Shown one piece after another: positions 1,237-25,313 of a DNA stretch of 37,679 nt. The notes under the pieces are model-generated. The model was given only the letters and a program-made list of their open reading frames with translations. It was not told the DNA's origin and ran no database searches. This stretch comes from Methanothrix sp. (GTDB lineage Archaea; Halobacteriota; Methanosarcinia; Methanotrichales; Methanotrichaceae): the NCBI RefSeq assembly GCF_024518575.1, contig NZ_JANIHG010000014.1, positions 1-37,679 on the forward strand, read 5' to 3'. Made by a program: the position numbers and the translations under genes. Each line of letters opens with the position of its first letter. Position 1 is the stretch's first letter.

Positions 1237-2835
1237 CTATCGTATCAGCATCCCGCTCAGCACCACCACGAACAGCCCCAGCAGGAACCAGCCGAGGATC
1301 CCCTCGATCATGCTCACGTGCTTGTACATGCCGACAGGATAAAGGGACGCAGGCGACTGGGATGTGAACGACATCGCGCTGAAGAAAATCGAGTCGGAGA
1401 AAGGTATCCGCCTCTCAGCCTGTGGCTCCTCGCTCTCGTTTTCCTCAGGATCCGGCTCCTCCGATCCCTCTCGCGCCTCGTCCGATAGATTCTCCCACTC
1501 TATCTCCCTTATCCCGTTGCCGATCCAGTAGATCACCCCGAACAGAATAATCATGAACATCGACCAGAATATGGTGTAGCTGGGCCTAACACCATAACCG
1601 CATGAGAGCCAGGAGATCACATCGATCAGCTTCTCCAGACCCCATGGCTCTGACGACTGGGCGATCCTCCTGTACCGGTAGTAGCAGTCGTTCGCGTCAT
1701 CCCTCCACTCCAGGTTCTTGTAGTTCTTCACCAGTGCAAGGTACGCAGCGCTGTCGTAAACGAGATGATCCTTTATCAGAGACCACCGCGCGAGCATCCT
1801 CGTGAAATCAGCCTCGTTCAGGTAAATCCTGGAGGAACTGGAGAACGTGGCGTTCTCAAGCTGCATCGAGTATATCCGCGAGCTTGTCAGCACGAGATCT
1901 CCATAAAAGGTGGTGTTCACGAATCTCGTGTTGTCCTCGAGCTTGGCGAGCCCGAAGAAGGCGACAGAGCGGAAGAGAGCGCTCGAGAAGTCCGAGAACC
2001 CCTGGAAGGCTGCAAGGCCGAATACAGCCGGTTTAGAAAATTGCGCCCCGCTGAATGTGACATCATGAGAGAACCTTGATCCCATGAATATCGCGTTCTC
2101 GTCGAAACTCACCTTGATGAAGTTGGCCGTTCCGGAGAACTCGCTGTTCGCAAAGCTGGTCTCACCGTGGAATACGGATCGCCAGAAAGAGACGAGCTGG
2201 TAGAAGTGCGCGAACTCGAAGCTCACCCTTCCCAGGAAATGGACGTTCTCGAAGCTCGTATCATCCATGAACTGCGCGTTCGAGAGGTCCGCATAATCCC
2301 AGAAAGCGGCACCCTCGAAGCTCCCCACCTTGGAGAGCTGTGCATAGCTCATGCTCACCGGCCCGTGAAAGTTCGTCCCGACGAAGTTCGCAGTTCCCCC
2401 GAATTTTGTCAGGGTGAACTCAGCGCCCCTAAGGAGATGCGCACCCGCAAAGGATACATCAGAACCGAAGCTCGCGCCCGTCGCGACCACGCCCCCTGAG
2501 AATACCGTGCCGCTGAGGTTCAGGGGGGTCATGAACTCAACGCCGCTGATCATCAGCGAGCCGTTGATCGTCGAGTTCACTATCTTTATAGGAGAGAAGA
2601 CGGGCTTTCCGATCCTGCTGAGGTTGATATCCCCCGAGACGAAGACGTTCTCGTATATCACAGGCTCCCCGGCGCGGATCTTTCCGAGAATCTCGGCTGC
2701 AGAGACGATCCTGCAGATTCCATCGCTCGCGTTGCAGCCGATATCCTGGGCGGAGACGGTTGAGAGCAGCAGCATGCTCATGAACAGCGCACAGCCAGCG
2801 ACAGCCCGTATCTGAACCACGCTCCTCCTCTTCAT
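1237..2835 (-). CDS. Secreted pentapeptide-repeat protein with C-terminal two-helix channel-like domain
   Basis: 532 aa. Residues 1-29 form a signal peptide ending near VSAQD. Residues ~60-340 are a long run of pentapeptide-type repeats of the F-centred kind (A-x-F-x-G, SFANSEF, ANFIKVSF, AVFGLAAF), expected to form a right-handed quadrilateral beta-helix outside the cell. A linker leads to TM1 (~420-440), an acidic insert (DEAREGSEEPDPEENE), a re-entrant pore-helix-like segment (~478-500, DSIFFSAMSFT...LYPVG) and TM2 (~511-531). The order TM1-pore-TM2 and the phrase FFSAMSFT...YP match two-helix ion channels, but the TxGYGD filter is replaced by TSQSPAS. It is transcribed away from the small membrane-peptide gene. 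Start is the ATG at 2835. Conductance, if any, is unknown. Confidence 0.75.
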   Translation of the reverse strand: MKRRSVVQIRAVAGCALFMSMLLLSTVSAQDIGCNASDGICRIVSAAEILGKIRAGEPVIYENVFVSGDINLSRIGKPVFSPIKIVNSTINGSLMISGVEFMTPLNLSGTVFSGGVVATGASFGSDVSFAGAHLLRGAEFTLTKFGGTANFVGTNFHGPVSMSYAQLSKVGSFEGAAFWDYADLSNAQFMDDTSFENVHFLGRVSFEFAHFYQLVSFWRSVFHGETSFANSEFSGTANFIKVSFDENAIFMGSRFSHDVTFSGAQFSKPAVFGLAAFQGFSDFSSALFRSVAFFGLAKLEDNTRFVNTTFYGDLVLTSSRIYSMQLENATFSSSSRIYLNEADFTRMLARWSLIKDHLVYDSAAYLALVKNYKNLEWRDDANDCYYRYRRIAQSSEPWGLEKLIDVISWLSCGYGVRPSYTIFWSMFMIILFGVIYWIGNGIREIEWENLSDEAREGSEEPDPEENESEEPQAERRIPFSDSIFFSAMSFTSQSPASLYPVGMYKHVSMIEGILGWFLLGLFVVVLSGMLIR

Positions 2836-2954
2836 GAATATCTGCCTGGATATAGGCTTTGTCCAGCATAGCCTGGCAGTTCCGGAGATCCTGGGGTACT
2901 ATAATTCCAGGAGCCTTTTCCAGATCCGGATCTCGACCACCCCCAGGCCAATCA

Positions 2955-2964
2955 TTTATATAAC
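2955..2964 (+). promoter_or_regulatory. TATA box, leaderless promoter
   Basis: TTTATATAAC lies with its centre 27 bp upstream of the ATG at 2987, so transcription should begin at or beside the start codon. Confidence 0.6.
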
Positions 2965-2986
2965 CTATCACTGCACTGTATCTCTC

Positions 2987-3145
2987 ATGAGCAGATTCAA
3001 GAGAAAGGACAGAAACCTGATACTCTTGGTACTGGCAGTGGTTCTCGTGGTGATACTCTGGGGCCCGCTGATGTGGCTGGCGAAGCTTGCCATCTTTGTG
3101 ATAGCTGTTTATGTGGTGTACCAGCTCCTCAGAGAGAACCTGTGA
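2987..3145 (+). CDS. Small membrane peptide (52 aa)
   Basis: The product begins MSRFKRKDRN, a strongly basic N-terminus, followed by two hydrophobic stretches (LILLVLAVVLVVILW and LAKLAIFVIAVYVVYQLL), so it is a two-helix or hairpin membrane peptide with a cytoplasmic basic end. A longer in-frame start exists at 2834, but the TATA box at 2955-2964 is inside that extension and points to 2987 as a leaderless start. It is divergent from the pentapeptide-repeat gene and alone in its unit. No family is recognised and function is unknown. Confidence 0.55.
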   Translation: MSRFKRKDRNLILLVLAVVLVVILWGPLMWLAKLAIFVIAVYVVYQLLRENL

Positions 3146-3360: not shown

Positions 3361-3397
3361 TGATCCCGTGTACATTTCAGGAGGTTCTGTGGGATGT

Positions 3398-4516
3398 ATG
3401 GCGTTGGAAGATCTCGATGCCTCGAATGATATTTTCAGACATCTCTTCGAGAGCCTGCCGGTGGGCGTGGCGTATCTGGATCGGGAATGCAGGGTTGTGC
3501 TCGCAAACCCGGCGTTCACATCAATAACCGGACTGGATGTGGAGGAGATCAACAGAACAGAGCATCCACCATTCGCAGATAGCGAGGCTCGTTCGCGCAT
3601 ACTCGATATCATGAACTCGGGCAATAGCTCCAGCTTCGAGCATATCTGCACCAGACCAGATGGAGAGAGGGTGCATCTGAGGACATGGGTTCATCCGCTC
3701 AGCTCAGATCGCATACGTGCGCAGATCCTAAGCTGTGACATCAGTGAGGAGAGGGCCAGAGAGGCGATGCTCAGGAGCACCCACCGGACGCTGGAGAAGC
3801 TCGTATCCGATCGGACCTCAGAGCTCAAATCGAAGAACGATGAGATGGAGTGGCTACTGTACACGATATCCCACGACCTGAGAGCTCCACTGCTCACAAT
3901 CAGCGGCTTTCTCGGATTCCTCAGAGAGGACATGCGCGCCGGAAACTCCAGAAGGGTAGAGGATGATCTGAGAGTAATAGAGACCGCAGTGAACAGCATA
4001 AACGCGATGCTGGAGGACACGCTGAGGATCAGCAGGATTGGTAGATTCCTGGGTTCGCGGGATCGAGTTCAATTTGCAGATATCGTGAACGAAGCTCTCA
4101 CTCTCACGAGGGAAAAGCTGGTGTCCAAAGGTGTTGATGTGGTGGTCGATCCCGATCTGCCTGATGTTTACGTCAACAGGGTCAGGGCTGTCGAGGTTCT
4201 TGTCAATCTGATAGACAACAGCGTGAAGTACATGGGGGATCAGAGGAAACCGCAGATACACATCGGCTGCAGGAAGAACGGAGAGGCTGTTTTTTACGTC
4301 AGGGATAACGGGATTGGTATAGATCCGAAGCATCACAGCAGCGTATTCAGGCTCTTTTACAAGATCGACAGCAGATCAGAGGGGACCGGCGCCGGCCTTG
4401 CGATCGTCAAAAAGATAATCGAAACGCACGGCGGTCGGGTCTGGATAGAGTCTGAGCCGGGAAAGGGTTGCACGGTCTTCTTCACGCTGCCATCGATAAA
4501 GAACAGCACAGCCTGA
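3398..4516 (+). CDS. Cytosolic PAS-domain sensor histidine kinase
   Basis: About 372 aa. Residues ~8-115 form one PAS sensor domain (VGVAYLDRECRVVLANPAF). A short coiled coil (~120-155) leads to the HisKA H-box with H159 (YTISHDLRAPL). The HATPase domain has an N-box (LVNLIDNSVKYMG), G1 (RDNGIGID), F-box (VFRLFYKI) and G2 (GTGAGLAIVKK). There is no membrane segment, so the input is probably cytosolic, and no response regulator lies nearby. The kinase core is closely similar to that of the kinase at 23188-24993, whose sensor part is unrelated. Start is uncertain: GGAGGT at 3380-3385 precedes both GTG 3389 (very close) and ATG 3398 (slightly far); GTG 3368 is also in frame. An intrinsic terminator-like hairpin follows at 4623. 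Confidence 0.88.
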   Translation: MALEDLDASNDIFRHLFESLPVGVAYLDRECRVVLANPAFTSITGLDVEEINRTEHPPFADSEARSRILDIMNSGNSSSFEHICTRPDGERVHLRTWVHPLSSDRIRAQILSCDISEERAREAMLRSTHRTLEKLVSDRTSELKSKNDEMEWLLYTISHDLRAPLLTISGFLGFLREDMRAGNSRRVEDDLRVIETAVNSINAMLEDTLRISRIGRFLGSRDRVQFADIVNEALTLTREKLVSKGVDVVVDPDLPDVYVNRVRAVEVLVNLIDNSVKYMGDQRKPQIHIGCRKNGEAVFYVRDNGIGIDPKHHSSVFRLFYKIDSRSEGTGAGLAIVKKIIETHGGRVWIESEPGKGCTVFFTLPSIKNSTA

Positions 4517-14679: not shown

Positions 14680-17600
14680 CTACCTTCCAACCCTTACTGA
14701 TGTCACGTTCTTGCTCCCTAGGGCAGCGCTGCCCTTCGGTCCAATGCCGCTGAGAGCCTCGTCCACCATGGATCTTATTGTGTAATTGACTGACACGCTG
14801 CTGATGCTGCTTCGATCCCTGACCTGCACGGTGATGTTGTGATCACCCGTTGCCACACCCACGGTGTTCCATGTGAACTTGCCGGACGGCGACCAGTCTG
14901 TGGCGGGCGAGCCGTCCACCAGGAATCTGTAAAGGAGCGGATCGCTCTCCGAATCGTGCGCCACTGCGGTCCATATCACAGATATGCCGGCGTGCTGCGG
15001 GCTGCTCAGATCCGGTGTGAGACTTTCGATCACAGGCGGCTGGTTCACGACCCTCTTTGATTCCACCGTGAACTCGGATGTTATGCTCTGGCCGTTCTCA
15101 TGGGCCTCATCCCTCACAACCGCTGTTATGCTGTGCCTTCCCTCCTCTGAGACTCTCAAAGTCCATCGGCCTGTGCCCGACCAGTCGCTCACAGCCACGC
15201 CATCGACAAAGAACCTGTACAGCAGCGCATCGCCCTCGGGATCCCTCGCCTCCGCTGTCCATATCACATCATCCCCGGGCTCGAAAGGTCCGGCCCTGTC
15301 AGATGTGAGGGATATCACCTCAGGTGGTCGATTCTCAGGGTTCAGGATGAACTTCGCTGTCTGAGCAGAATCAAAGCCCGTGGAACCTGCATGCTGTCCG
15401 TCCCTGGCCCACACCCCAACCAGGTACTCCCCGGAAGGTAAACCGGATGTGTTCCATATCCAGGTACCTGACGAAGACCAGTCGGACACAACCTTTCCGT
15501 TCAGCGAGAATCTGTACAGAAGCGTGTCGTTGTCAGGATCATCCGCTGATGCGGTCCATGTTATCATCGAGCCCACAGGCTGCGGGCTTTCTGGAGAGGA
15601 TGAGAGCTTCAGCCTGGCCGGCGGCCTGTTGGGGGCGCTGAGCTCGAAGCCCTTCTCCTTTGCATCATCATGATCTGCATGCATGCCGTCTCTCACATGA
15701 ACGGTGAACATGTGATTGCCAGGACGGAGCCCGGATGTATCGAGCTCGAATACCGCGGATGACGACCACTCGCTCACAGCCACGCCATCAACAAAGAACC
15801 TGTACAGGATCGGATCGTTATCTGGATCCTCTGCCAGTACGCTCCAGGTGATCCTCGAGCCAACTGGCTGCGGGTCCCCCCTGTCAGGCAGGAGGCTCAG
15901 CGCCCTTGGTGGAGAGTTCTTCTTTTCAAGAGAGAAGACCACATCCTTCCTGTCGTGATCCTTGTGACGATCGTCCTTGGCCAGAGCGCTCACCCTGTGC
16001 TCCCCCTCGCTGTAGCCGCTCGTGTTCCATACGAACCAGGGTTTCGCAGACCAGTCGCTCACCACGACGCCATCGACCAGGAACCTGTATAGGACGGTAT
16101 CGTTATCGGGATCATCTGCGGAGGCTGTCCATTTTATCGCCGATCCAACTGGCTGGGGGCTCTCCCTGTCAGGCGCCAGTCCCGTGATCCTCGGAGGGGC
16201 GTTTGCTTCCACGATCTCTATGACCCTCTCCAGAGAATCATCACTTTCAGATGAATGGAGGCCATCCCTAACATCAACGCGGAGAGTATGATTCCCGGGA
16301 GCGAGACCGGATGTGTTCATAACAAACACGCCAGATCCAGACCACTCTCCAGCAGGATGGCCGTCAACATAGAACCTGTAAAGAAGCGTGTTGTTCTCCG
16401 GATCTGACGCGGCAGCAGACCATCTGATCTGTGCGCCCTGAGGCTGCGGCCCCTCTGGATCTGAGATCAGAGCTGTGAGCTCCGGCGGCAGGTTCACAGG
16501 AATGAGTTTGTACAGCGACCATGCCGTATCCTCGCAGTCTGTGTGATTCGAATCCCTCACACAAGCGCTCACGTTGTACTCGCCAGCTGGGATTCCCGAT
16601 GTGTACCACGTCCAGCTCGGGCTGCTGCTCCAGCCGGTGATCGGCCTGCCGTTCAAAAAGAACCTGTAGCTCATCCCATCCGAAGGTCCAGATGCCCTGA
16701 CAGTCCAGACAACCGTGGTTCCGACCTTCTGGGGGCTCTCCTTATCCGGCACAAGGCTCTCGATCTCGGGGCGCAGGTTCAGAGGTGCGATCCACTGGGA
16801 TGTATTCTCCGGCGCGCTCATGCTCCTGTTCATCTCGTTAAGAGATGCTGGAGACAAATGATCTGCACTCGTGTTCTCGATATTCGGTGAGGCTGTGGAT
16901 GCATTCGTTGATCTCTCAGCAACGCCATGCGAATCTTCTTTCGTCTGATTTTGGCTGGCGGAAGCGTTCATCAAAGCATCAACGATGGAAGCAGGGAACG
17001 TGGTGTTCGCGACGGCGGTTGCGTTTTCGTGAGGCCTTGCTGCGGCGCCTGATACATTGCCGGTCATATTATCCACAGGCGTCCTGCTCTCGTTCTGCGG
17101 CATCTCAGAACCAGCGCTCTCATCCCTTTCAGGAGGGGATGTGGAGCCAGAGCCGCTTGACGATCCAGAGCCACCGGATCCCGATGACCCACTCCGCGTG
17201 GCAGCCAGCGATGTGCTGCGCAGAGATGCGCCCTGCGAGATGTTCTTCGAGACATTCGTGACATTCGAAGTGATGTTAAGGGACTGCGTCTCCCCGCCTG
17301 CTGAAACGTTCTCCGGAGGCGTTTCTGTGAAGTAATCGCTGATCCTCATAGTTTTCTGGTAATCCTTTATCATCTCGCCGTCCCTGTAGAGAGCAATTCT
17401 GAGCGCGCAGAGATCTCCTGCGTCTTCGGGCATGCTCCACTCCAGCGTCTCCTCGTGTGCATCACCATCAGCCAGGTGCGTATTCCTCTGAGCCGCCAGA
17501 GTTCCATTCATCTCAACAGCTATCGTGTAGTTCGCAGCCGCTCCCTCATGGTTTATGACTCCAAAGATCGCTGTCGCGCGCCCATCGCTCTTCATGCTCA

Positions 17601-18123
17601 GACCGGTCACGTAGAACTCCGTGAAACCCTCCCGCTTCTCGCTCTTCACAGTCACGTAGCCGAAAGATATGGCAGCGATCATCAGAAGAAGAACGATTGC
17701 GGGGACGATGTTCTGCGGGATAGCACCTCGGTTGCTCCTTAGGCCGTAGCGGTGGGTTTGGAGAGAGAAACGCCTCCTCCTCGGGACCGCGCCCCTGCGG
17801 ATATGCGCAAGGACCGCGAGAATCAAGACCAGGACAGCAAGAATCAGCACGGGAATTTCCCGAAGGCCCAGCGCGATCTCCGCCAGCAACATCACCAGCG
17901 CCAGAAAGATGCTTAGTGCGATCCTCTGTGAAACAGATCCGAGCGGGTCGTTCTCGGGAAGCACTGCTGATATGAGCGCATAGAGCAGAAGCGCCTGAAG
18001 CGCGAACGAGATCGCATCAGCATGGACGCTCATGCCGATGGCCGCAGTGAGCAGAGCCAGTGCAGCCACCACAATGAGATCCAAAGGCAGTGCATCGCCT
18101 CTCAGCCGGATTTTACTCGCCAC
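14680..18123 (-). CDS. DUF1616 membrane protein with seven tandem Ig/PKD-like surface repeats
   Basis: 1147 aa. Five hydrophobic helices at ~14-31, 37-55, 66-86, 89-107 and 137-157 are followed by EGFTEFYVTG...FGVINHEG, the typical exported part of DUF1616 proteins (~165-270). A Ser/Gly/Thr-rich stalk with many sequons spans ~290-445. Seven tandem repeats of ~94-99 aa fill ~450-1120; each has PP-x(6)-PDxESPQPVG, WTAxADDPDNDxxLYRFxVDG, DWS and a GEHxVxxxVRDxxH core, like beta-sandwich PKD/cadherin-type domains. Repeats 2-5 are closest to each other. Start is GTG 18123, with a CATAAAA box ~30 bp upstream. It is co-transcribed with the small secreted protein downstream. Likely adhesion or envelope role, inferred only. 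Confidence 0.8.
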   Translation of the reverse strand: MASKIRLRGDALPLDLIVVAALALLTAAIGMSVHADAISFALQALLLYALISAVLPENDPLGSVSQRIALSIFLALVMLLAEIALGLREIPVLILAVLVLILAVLAHIRRGAVPRRRRFSLQTHRYGLRSNRGAIPQNIVPAIVLLLMIAAISFGYVTVKSEKREGFTEFYVTGLSMKSDGRATAIFGVINHEGAAANYTIAVEMNGTLAAQRNTHLADGDAHEETLEWSMPEDAGDLCALRIALYRDGEMIKDYQKTMRISDYFTETPPENVSAGGETQSLNITSNVTNVSKNISQGASLRSTSLAATRSGSSGSGGSGSSSGSGSTSPPERDESAGSEMPQNESRTPVDNMTGNVSGAAARPHENATAVANTTFPASIVDALMNASASQNQTKEDSHGVAERSTNASTASPNIENTSADHLSPASLNEMNRSMSAPENTSQWIAPLNLRPEIESLVPDKESPQKVGTTVVWTVRASGPSDGMSYRFFLNGRPITGWSSSPSWTWYTSGIPAGEYNVSACVRDSNHTDCEDTAWSLYKLIPVNLPPELTALISDPEGPQPQGAQIRWSAAASDPENNTLLYRFYVDGHPAGEWSGSGVFVMNTSGLAPGNHTLRVDVRDGLHSSESDDSLERVIEIVEANAPPRITGLAPDRESPQPVGSAIKWTASADDPDNDTVLYRFLVDGVVVSDWSAKPWFVWNTSGYSEGEHRVSALAKDDRHKDHDRKDVVFSLEKKNSPPRALSLLPDRGDPQPVGSRITWSVLAEDPDNDPILYRFFVDGVAVSEWSSSAVFELDTSGLRPGNHMFTVHVRDGMHADHDDAKEKGFELSAPNRPPARLKLSSSPESPQPVGSMITWTASADDPDNDTLLYRFSLNGKVVSDWSSSGTWIWNTSGLPSGEYLVGVWARDGQHAGSTGFDSAQTAKFILNPENRPPEVISLTSDRAGPFEPGDDVIWTAEARDPEGDALLYRFFVDGVAVSDWSGTGRWTLRVSEEGRHSITAVVRDEAHENGQSITSEFTVESKRVVNQPPVIESLTPDLSSPQHAGISVIWTAVAHDSESDPLLYRFLVDGSPATDWSPSGKFTWNTVGVATGDHNITVQVRDRSSISSVSVNYTIRSMVDEALSGIGPKGSAALGSKNVTSVRVGR

Positions 18124-23187: not shown

Positions 23188-24993
23188 TCATACTGCTTCA
23201 GATTTCTTCGAGAGCGGCAGCGTGAAGAAGACTGTGCATCCTTTTCCCAGCTCTGACTCTATCCATATCCTTCCGCCATGGACCTCGACGATCCTTTTGA
23301 CGATGGCCAGTCCTGCGCCGGTGCCCTCAGATCTGTTATCCACCTTGTAGAACAGCTCGAATACCCTCTTGTGGTTTTTGGGGTCTATCCCGATCCCGTT
23401 ATCTCTGACATAGAATACAGTTTCGCCGTCCCTCATGCAGCCGATCTCTATCCTCGGCGCTCTCTGATCTCCCATGTACTTGGCGCTGTTCTCTATGAGA
23501 TTGACGAGCATCTCCACAACTCTCATCCTGTCGACGTGGACTACGGGCATCTCCTCCGCCACATCCACGCTCACGCCCCTGGACCGTATCCTTTCAGAGG
23601 TCACATCCAGCGCCTCTCTGACGATATCAGAGAAGGGCACGTCCTCAGGCGGGTTCACCATACGGCCGATGCGGCTGAGCTCCAGAGTGTCCTGGAGCAG
23701 CCTGTCCATCTTCGTGATGGCGCCCTCCACTATCTCGATATCCTTTCTGACCTTGTCCCACGCGCCCTTCTCGATATCATCCCTCATGAACCTGAGGAAC
23801 CCGACTACAGTGATCAGAGGCGATCTGAGGTCGTGGGAGACGGTGTATATGAACCTCTCCATCTCCGATGTCTTGGCCTCAAGATCTTTTATAAGATGCT
23901 CCTTCTCACGCTCCGAGGCGATCCTCTGATGCAGCTCTCTCTGGGAGGCCGCGTAAAGCATTGTGTTCTCTTTGATCGCGATTACCTGTCTGATCACTAT
24001 CAGCAGTATTATCATCCCCACGCCTGCGGCGAGATGATTATGGCGTATGTACAGATTGACATCCTCTCTCTCAATGCTCCAGACCAGAAATGCATATGCT
24101 GAGATGGCACAGATGTATGGAAGGTATAGGGGCCAGGTGAACCCGGATGATGGCCGCTTTGCAGTCTTTATTGGCACGCTGGCGGATTCGACCTGGAGCA
24201 CCCCTGCAAGTCCGGTGAGTATGTAGCTGATCAGCCAGAAGTTATCGTTGAGTGTTGCGGGCACATAGGTCTCCCTCAGAGCATTTATCATGAATATCGA
24301 GTCCGCAACTATCATGAAGAAAGCGCTTGCTGCCAGGAGCATGATGGGGCGCTGGGCTATATGCTCTATTCTTCTGAAGATGAGCGCGATGATTGAGAAC
24401 GTGAGAACAAGATCTGCAACCGGATACGCGACTGCGATCGCATTTGTGAGAGGATCCGATTCCTCAAGGGTCGCGATCGTGGGCGCGATGAGAAAGCTCC
24501 AGAATATTATGATTGCGAATATCGTCACGATGCCTGTGTCCAGGATGGACTTCAGGCGCTCGAAGGCGCTCTGGTACGGGGCTGGCAGCAGAAGGATGCC
24601 GATGAGGAAGAACAGGTAGTAAGCGAGGTAGGGGCCATCAGCAACCGACGGAAACGGCACCTCTCCCAGTCCGATCTCCAGGATGCTCCAGAGCACGTCC
24701 CCCAGGGCGTAAAGCACCTGCGCAACCGCGAAGAACGCCCATGCGATGTACATCCTCTCATCTATTGATCTTGTGGCTCTGGCAGCTCTGAAGAGAGAGA
24801 GTGCAGCAAGCCCGTTGACCACCGGCCATATTATATCATCTATGATCACACGCTGCTGCTCCTGATCTCCCAGGTACAGAACGATCGCGGATCTGACGAT
24901 CAGGATCGCCGCGCCCAGCATGAGAGCACGGCGGAATGTCAAAGAGCGGCATGATACCCCACCCCTTTCAGATCCGTTATGAACTTGCTTCAT
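23188..24993 (-). CDS. Membrane sensor histidine kinase with multi-helix N-terminus
   Basis: 601 aa from ATG 24993 (GTG 24999 is also in frame). The first ~340 residues contain about nine hydrophobic helices with short loops, with no recognised extracellular domain, so it may sense something in or at the membrane. A short coiled coil (~350-380) leads to the H-box YTVSHDLRSPL with the phospho-accepting His near residue 387. ATPase motifs: N-box LVNLIENSAKYMG, G1 RDNGIGID, F-box VFELFYKV, G2 GTGAGLAIVKR. The kinase core is nearly the same as in the gene at 3398, from YMGDQR to the last residues. No response regulator is adjacent. Confidence 0.9.
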   Translation of the reverse strand: MKQVHNGSERGGVSCRSLTFRRALMLGAAILIVRSAIVLYLGDQEQQRVIIDDIIWPVVNGLAALSLFRAARATRSIDERMYIAWAFFAVAQVLYALGDVLWSILEIGLGEVPFPSVADGPYLAYYLFFLIGILLLPAPYQSAFERLKSILDTGIVTIFAIIIFWSFLIAPTIATLEESDPLTNAIAVAYPVADLVLTFSIIALIFRRIEHIAQRPIMLLAASAFFMIVADSIFMINALRETYVPATLNDNFWLISYILTGLAGVLQVESASVPIKTAKRPSSGFTWPLYLPYICAISAYAFLVWSIEREDVNLYIRHNHLAAGVGMIILLIVIRQVIAIKENTMLYAASQRELHQRIASEREKEHLIKDLEAKTSEMERFIYTVSHDLRSPLITVVGFLRFMRDDIEKGAWDKVRKDIEIVEGAITKMDRLLQDTLELSRIGRMVNPPEDVPFSDIVREALDVTSERIRSRGVSVDVAEEMPVVHVDRMRVVEMLVNLIENSAKYMGDQRAPRIEIGCMRDGETVFYVRDNGIGIDPKNHKRVFELFYKVDNRSEGTGAGLAIVKRIVEVHGGRIWIESELGKGCTVFFTLPLSKKSEAV

Positions 24994-25313
24994 GAACACC
25001 GTGAACTCAATCTCCGAGTTCCTTTCCAGCCCCCAAATATTAATATTTCAGCAATCTATCTAAATATTTCGCATCCTTGAGCACCTATCACTTACCTTGG
25101 AATCGGAGAGATGTAAGCACAGAAATCGGCAGCCTGTGGCTGAGCAGCCAGAAGGCGAGTGAGTCTTCAGAAGATCCCGTGATGCACACTGAATTATTCG
25201 GTCCGGTGCTTCACTGCCTGAGTACCGTAGCTCATATCACCCATTCTTATATGCACTCAGGCTTGCAGTGTGTGCAGTGCATTTTATCTGGAATTAGCCT
25301 GAACTGCCATATC
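24994..25313. other. Divergent promoter region, no gene
   Basis: This holds an AT-rich AATATTAATATTT block (25037-25049) suited as TATA box for the minus-strand kinase, and two TATA-like boxes for the plus-strand methyltransferase (TTATATGC near 25250 and ATTTTATC at 25281). An open frame continues upstream from the methyltransferase to 25077, but its residues are unlike a protein domain and the boxes lie inside it. Confidence 0.4.
25281..25288 (+). promoter_or_regulatory. TATA box for methyltransferase gene
   Basis: ATTTTATC is centred 29 bp before the ATG at 25314, a near-leaderless spacing. Confidence 0.45.

Follow-up and report, generated by a model that had tools for sequence, protein, structure and literature searches.

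In the Methanotrichaceae, the K+ selectivity filter of a protein joining a long pentapeptide-repeat β-helix to a two-helix pore module is, as read from sequence comparison, replaced across the whole lineage and conserved in its replaced form, since relatives keep TVGYGD, Methanotrichaceae almost never do, and selection on the gene is purifying. The gene lies at 1237-2835 on the minus strand of the window (the entire stretch of Methanothrix sp. DNA analyzed, 37,679 nucleotides) and is an intact open reading frame of 532 aa, with an ATG start and no internal stops. Inspection of its N-terminus, MKRRSVVQIRAVAGCALFMSMLLLSTVSA followed by QD, bore out the signal peptide proposed in the initial annotation: the signal-peptide-like segment (residues 1-29; 2749-2835, minus strand as for all parts of the gene), with cleavage read by eye after VSA, combines a KRR...R flank with a hydrophobic core, as is typical of exporting signals, its hydrophobic stretch recurs in the genus orthologues, and AlphaFold2 places a helix at residues 8-26. 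It is followed by the long β-helix that had likewise been proposed (residues 41-350; 1786-2715), matched by Pentapeptide_3 (PF13576) in seven stretches (106 bits against a cut-off of 27, E = 8e-31), modeled by AlphaFold2 as a right-handed β-helix with pLDDT mostly above 90, and structurally alignable to solved pentapeptide proteins (6fls, Z 18.4; QnrB1, 2xtw, Z 18.0; the designed 4yfo, Z 19.2). A conserved helical linker (residues 355-412; 1600-1773), in which K402, D405 and W409 are invariant in the alignment and AlphaFold2 gives helices at pLDDT of about 70 or less, leads to a CGYGV motif before TM1 (residues 412-416; 1588-1602), which is a linker motif of the family and not a filter, being present also in filter-bearing relatives and, as CGYGE, in the Aeromonas relative.

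The remaining elements were found where they had been placed, within residues 421-531: TM1 (residues 421-440; 1516-1575), recognized by hydropathy and by a low-confidence model helix at 418-438; an acidic TM1-pore loop with 15 D/E and four K/R, predicted to be cytosolic (residues 441-478; 1402-1515); the pore-helix-like segment FSDSIFFSAMSF, read earlier as DSIFFSAMSFT (residues 479-490; 1366-1401), also a low-confidence model helix; TSQSPAS in the position of TTVGYGD of the relatives (residues 491-497; 1345-1365); YPVG, identified by alignment (residues 499-502; 1330-1341); and TM2, in the end segment GMLIR (residues 505-531; 1243-1323), based on hydropathy, alignment and a low-confidence model helix over the same residues. 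The C-terminal AlphaFold2 model is poor (pLDDT 60.5, pTM 0.41), with the helices in the expected order TM1, pore helix, TM2; Foldseek with this model returned nothing below E 4, and 15 of its 33 matches at E ≤ 10 are K+ channels, from which nothing is concluded because every one of them lies above E 4. With the full model Foldseek gave nothing under E 0.001, and the absence of channels from the structure-match list is uninformative, as β-helix matches fill it. Sequence searches of the PDB, started from the protein itself and from a profile, retrieved no channel (best E-values of 0.85 and 0.47, respectively, at chance level), and NCBIfam had no match for the protein. Pfam yielded only Pentapeptide_3 and a weak Ion_trans_2 (14.2 bits, below the 22.5 cut-off; E = 0.041), and no glutamate- or substrate-binding domain split around the pore.

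The relationship to K+ channels emerges from the relatives. Ion_trans_2 matched the four filter-bearing relatives scanned with E-values from 1.6e-14 to 1.8e-18, and fell under the cut-off or gave no match in all six altered-filter homologues scanned; a profile of the family recovered the canonical members at E 8e-33 to 6e-45. In the alignment with TVGYGD relatives, the pore-helix-like segment occupies the columns of FxDAFYFSxVTF, and FTSQSPASLYP in the window protein stands against FTTVGYGDWYP without a gap, in agreement with the earlier reading that the filter was changed and its flanking residues kept. By alignment and profiles, the pore module shares descent with filter-bearing K+ channel members. 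Through these relatives it aligns with the 2TM/P-loop anatomy of KcsA-type K+ channels, from which it differs in lacking TVGYG, in its large exported domain and in its presumably opposite orientation.

The C-terminal 207 aa were found in 47 of 50 Methanotrichaceae genomes, and the homologue set comprised 138 distinct C-terminal homologues out of 224 ORF matches. Sixteen of these rows carry TxG[YFSN][GN][DN], 54, all from Methanotrichaceae, have [SA]QxP in place of the K+ filter, and 68 have other sequences; the canonical filter occurs in 14 of the 17 sampled rows outside Methanotrichaceae as against two of 121 inside (L063 of G049 and L137 of G008). A whole branch shares the changed filter, as the proposed alignment with homologues revealed: [SA]QxP is present in all rows of the window group, a clade of 33 rows in one tree and of 28 in the rooted tree, and Q493 and P495 do not vary across the 14 rows of an alignment that covers two paralogue groups. 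One additional residue is present in the filter region of most Methanothrix orthologues (FTTSQAPVNTYP). The presence in so many genomes, together with a filter region identical or nearly so in five of five genus orthologues, places the pattern beyond chance.

Between paralogue groups the filter sequences differ widely (SQAPVN, SQGPID, STSSVD, AKTQVK, GRTPQN). At least 20 genomes carry another paralogue right next to the first and on the same strand, of the SQGPIDFLP kind in those that were read; in the genus of the window the two stand apart. The genome of the window has a single paralogue (41% identity), which lies on a different contig, and also contains three ordinary K+ channel genes (TVGFGD, TVGYGD, TVGYGD). 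In two cases (L038:2155-3021 and L043:2168-3031; 309 and 315 aa) the neighboring paralogue appears to open in mid-repeat and is possibly frameshifted or cut.

When the window gene was compared with its five genus orthologues, dN/dS was 0.115-0.137 overall, 0.033-0.060 over the pore and TM2 and 0.031-0.063 over the linker, which together are the slowest parts, and 0.26-0.45 (one comparison saturated) in the TM1-pore loop, the fastest part after the signal segment (about 0.7-1.5). Several synonymous changes were counted in the filter codons of these orthologues, the residues being kept except for S/A at one place.

A signal that exports the N-terminal domain, followed by two membrane helices, would place the N-domain and C-tail on the outer side of the membrane and the TM1-pore loop on the inner side, opposite to KcsA; this consequence of the signal peptide had been missed earlier, as had the way the charge pattern follows signal gain and loss. 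The protein may therefore be an exported β-helix that a 2TM/P-loop module derived from a K+ channel fixes to the cell surface, with TM1 running inward, the pore loop entering from the cytosol and TM2 running outward. We tentatively favor, at somewhat short of even confidence, an inverted tetrameric cation pore that is not K+-selective and is opened by the outer β-helix through the linker helices, like an ionotropic glutamate receptor: the β-helix would pull on TM1 and the linker helices of an inverted pore that no longer has the carbonyl ladder of GYG. Ancestors would have carried TVGYGD, and in Methanotrichaceae the filter would have been remade into [S/A]-Q-x-P-x-[N/S/D] and preserved from then on. 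Inverted topology, tetramerization, conduction and gating by the β-helix are all predictions for the window protein. A cation pore is what we lean to, and a non-conducting anchor is nearly as likely: the same inverted module could be a tetramer that anchors a surface β-helix in the membrane or acts as its mechanical sensor, the β-helix binding sheath, S-layer or partner cells. Every GYG backbone position is replaced, the diversity of filters between paralogue groups is what would be expected if selectivity were not needed, and the ordinary K+ channel genes remain in the genome, all of which suits an anchor; the strong conservation of [SA]QxP within the group of the window, and the slow evolution of pore and TM2 alongside the linker, weigh against it.

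The orientation was approached through the positive-inside rule. Of the 138 rows, 109 entered the charge test, 29 being dropped for a contig edge or an ORF opening inside the repeats. With a signal defined by a 14-residue uncharged window (77 signal-bearing and 32 signal-free rows, the latter including six with a signal by eye: L005, L049, L145, L160, L163, and L164), the loop averaged 5.35 K/R with a signal vs. 1.16 without, and the N-side 3.09 vs. 4.66. With an 11-residue definition (81 and 28 rows) the loop values were 5.22 vs. 0.93 (p = 5e-11, kinship ignored). Since the latter rule misreads the window gene, L049, L164, and L148, these four labels were set by hand, giving 83 signal-bearing and 26 signal-free rows, and at least three loop K/R were then present in 75 of the former vs. 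one of the latter (L134). The eight signal-bearing exceptions are L052, L053, L059, L071, L072, L145, L146, and L172, with L052 and L053 under-counted, as the alignment puts their inserts beyond the loop columns. Over the final ten residues K/R changed in the direction opposite to the loop (1.22 with a signal vs. 2.42 without).

Phylogenetic regression on a quick tree retained the association for the loop (p = 7.6e-5), its first 15 residues (p = 4e-4) and the C-tail (p = 9e-10), and N-side charge was not significant (p = 0.12). The signal state changes only four times on the tree, leaving three to four independent contrasts; over 200 random pairings of three well-supported independent pairs, a mean of 2.5 went the same way, 0.0 the opposite way and 0.5 showed no difference, for a sign-test p of 0.25, with so few pairs that the test is unable to reach 0.05. 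Across the family the charge pattern is thus associated, over few contrasts, with signal-peptide gain and loss, and it suggests that the pore is inserted upside-down, similarly to neuronal glutamate receptors. N-glycosylation sequons, tried as a topology test, exceed expectation in both groups (observed/expected 1.97 and 1.69) and do not tell the two apart (p = 0.13).

The charge bias of the window protein itself is weak (four K/R and 15 D/E in the loop, two K/R on the N-side), so its orientation rests on the signal and on the family. A KcsA-like orientation, with a non-exporting N-terminal segment, a cytosolic β-helix and the acidic loop outside, is improbable though worth weighing: the loop is strongly acidic (15 D/E of 39), K/R flank TM1 on both sides, and bacterial and haloarchaeal relatives lack a signal, so that their repeat domain is presumably cytosolic. 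It is opposed by the export-type N-terminus described above and by loop and tail charges that follow signal presence, and Methanotrichaceae paralogues without the segment display the opposite charge pattern. These paralogues (L066, L067, L069, L070, L073, L077, L078, L089, L118, L130-L132, L135, L138, L141-L144, L149, and L174) have almost no loop K/R and other filters (GRTPQN, AKTQVK, GGTPDG), and apparently constitute a second altered-filter set, normally oriented. It is hardly credible that a K+ channel has left only a pseudogene or a relaxed remnant here: the gene misses the curated channel profile cut-off, but its frame is open, its dN/dS (about 0.12 for the whole gene, 0.03-0.06 for pore plus TM2) rules out decay, and the module persists in nearly all Methanotrichaceae genomes. 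The initial annotation had named intact-filter homologues combined with decay of this gene as one outcome that would refute its reading; such homologues do exist, but the gene is under purifying selection.

In a rooted tree built without 27 long or near-identical rows, with two relatives from a plasmid collection, Aeromonas caviae (L191) and Halomicrobium (L190), as a distant and gappy outgroup, the window clade (28 rows, support 100) is wholly signal-bearing and altered in its filter. Uniting all altered filters in one clade was not rejected (AU p = 0.307), and one or several filter losses are therefore both compatible with the data. A broader and rather unlikely proposal is that the family is an independent archaeal counterpart of ionotropic glutamate receptors, in which a surface β-helix drives an upside-down K+-channel-derived pore, orientation flipped several times with signal gain or loss, and the Methanothrix-type filter was remade into [S/A]QxP and took on a new selectivity. 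If so, the route from K+ channel to glutamate-receptor pore, by export of a domain, inverted insertion and abandonment of the K+ filter, would have been taken a second time, in archaea, and living intermediates (no signal with intact filter, signal with intact filter, signal with replaced filter, signal lost again) would allow the order of these steps to be tested; acetate-using methanogens of a major group would also possess a conserved predicted surface membrane protein.

The A. caviae and Halomicrobium proteins share with the window protein the pentapeptide repeats, GYG linker motif, TM1-pore helix-filter-TM2 order and short C-tail, but have no export signal, an intact TLGYGD or TLGYGN, and one and two loop K/R, respectively, by hand count. 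Methanosarcinaceae-type and related archaeal homologues (most of L050-L062, and L090) share the signal, pentapeptide domain, linker, K/R-bearing loop and a TM2 mostly ending in MIRP, yet keep TVGYGD. TSQSPAS may resemble the filter of bacterial Nav channels, of the TLESWAS type, whose glutamate has no acidic counterpart here. Ionotropic glutamate receptors are considered to have arisen when a substrate-binding protein was joined to an inverted K+ channel, GluR0 being selective for K+ (PMC6385376). In a 2010 survey, Group 1 of the prokaryotic receptors keeps the K+ filter and Group 2 has none recognized, signal peptides help to orient them, and none were found in archaea (PMC2950845). GluR0 and its prokaryotic relatives resemble the present family in outline, with an exported domain ahead of an inverted K+-channel pore, but have a split glutamate-binding domain where the window protein has an unrelated outer domain, the pentapeptide β-helix; as the binding domain is absent, the family is not a member of the prokaryotic receptors. 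No paper on a pentapeptide channel architecture appeared among the open-licence PMC papers listed, and the main text of a DIET study on M. thermoacetophila (PMC10470525) contains none of the terms pentapeptide, channel, signal peptide or hypothetical.

Two canonical members hold in their pore loop an in-frame domain of about 88 aa (LFSWDxVPGxDxE...GxLNIY; L062 329-416 and L061 555-642), 44-84% identical between copies, which occurs elsewhere in L125/L106 437-525, L111 437-525, L108 244-330, L120 1618-1705, L116, L119/L128, L126, and L127. Its hosts in related archaea, named by sequence reading, are AlaRS-like, UvrD-like, tail-like and long exported proteins, and the domain has the look of a mobile element that inserts in frame. 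Its use as proof of a cytosolic loop, based on the AlaRS-like and UvrD-like hosts, was dropped because one host is a long exported protein.

Next to the gene, at 2834-3145 on the plus strand, lies a small ORF of divergent sequence, hydrophobic in its C-terminal half. The antisense reading of that stretch has a similar counterpart upstream of the L010/L036 orthologue in the genus, so that the site may encode a conserved small membrane protein. Further along the window, two histidine kinases recognized by eye (3368-4516, plus strand; 23188-24999, minus strand) have closely similar kinase domains, and a 1147-aa protein (14680-18123, minus strand) combines a hydrophobic N-terminal part with numerous repeats, alike in sequence and each roughly 85-90 aa long (DPDNDxLLYRFxVDGxxVSDWS).
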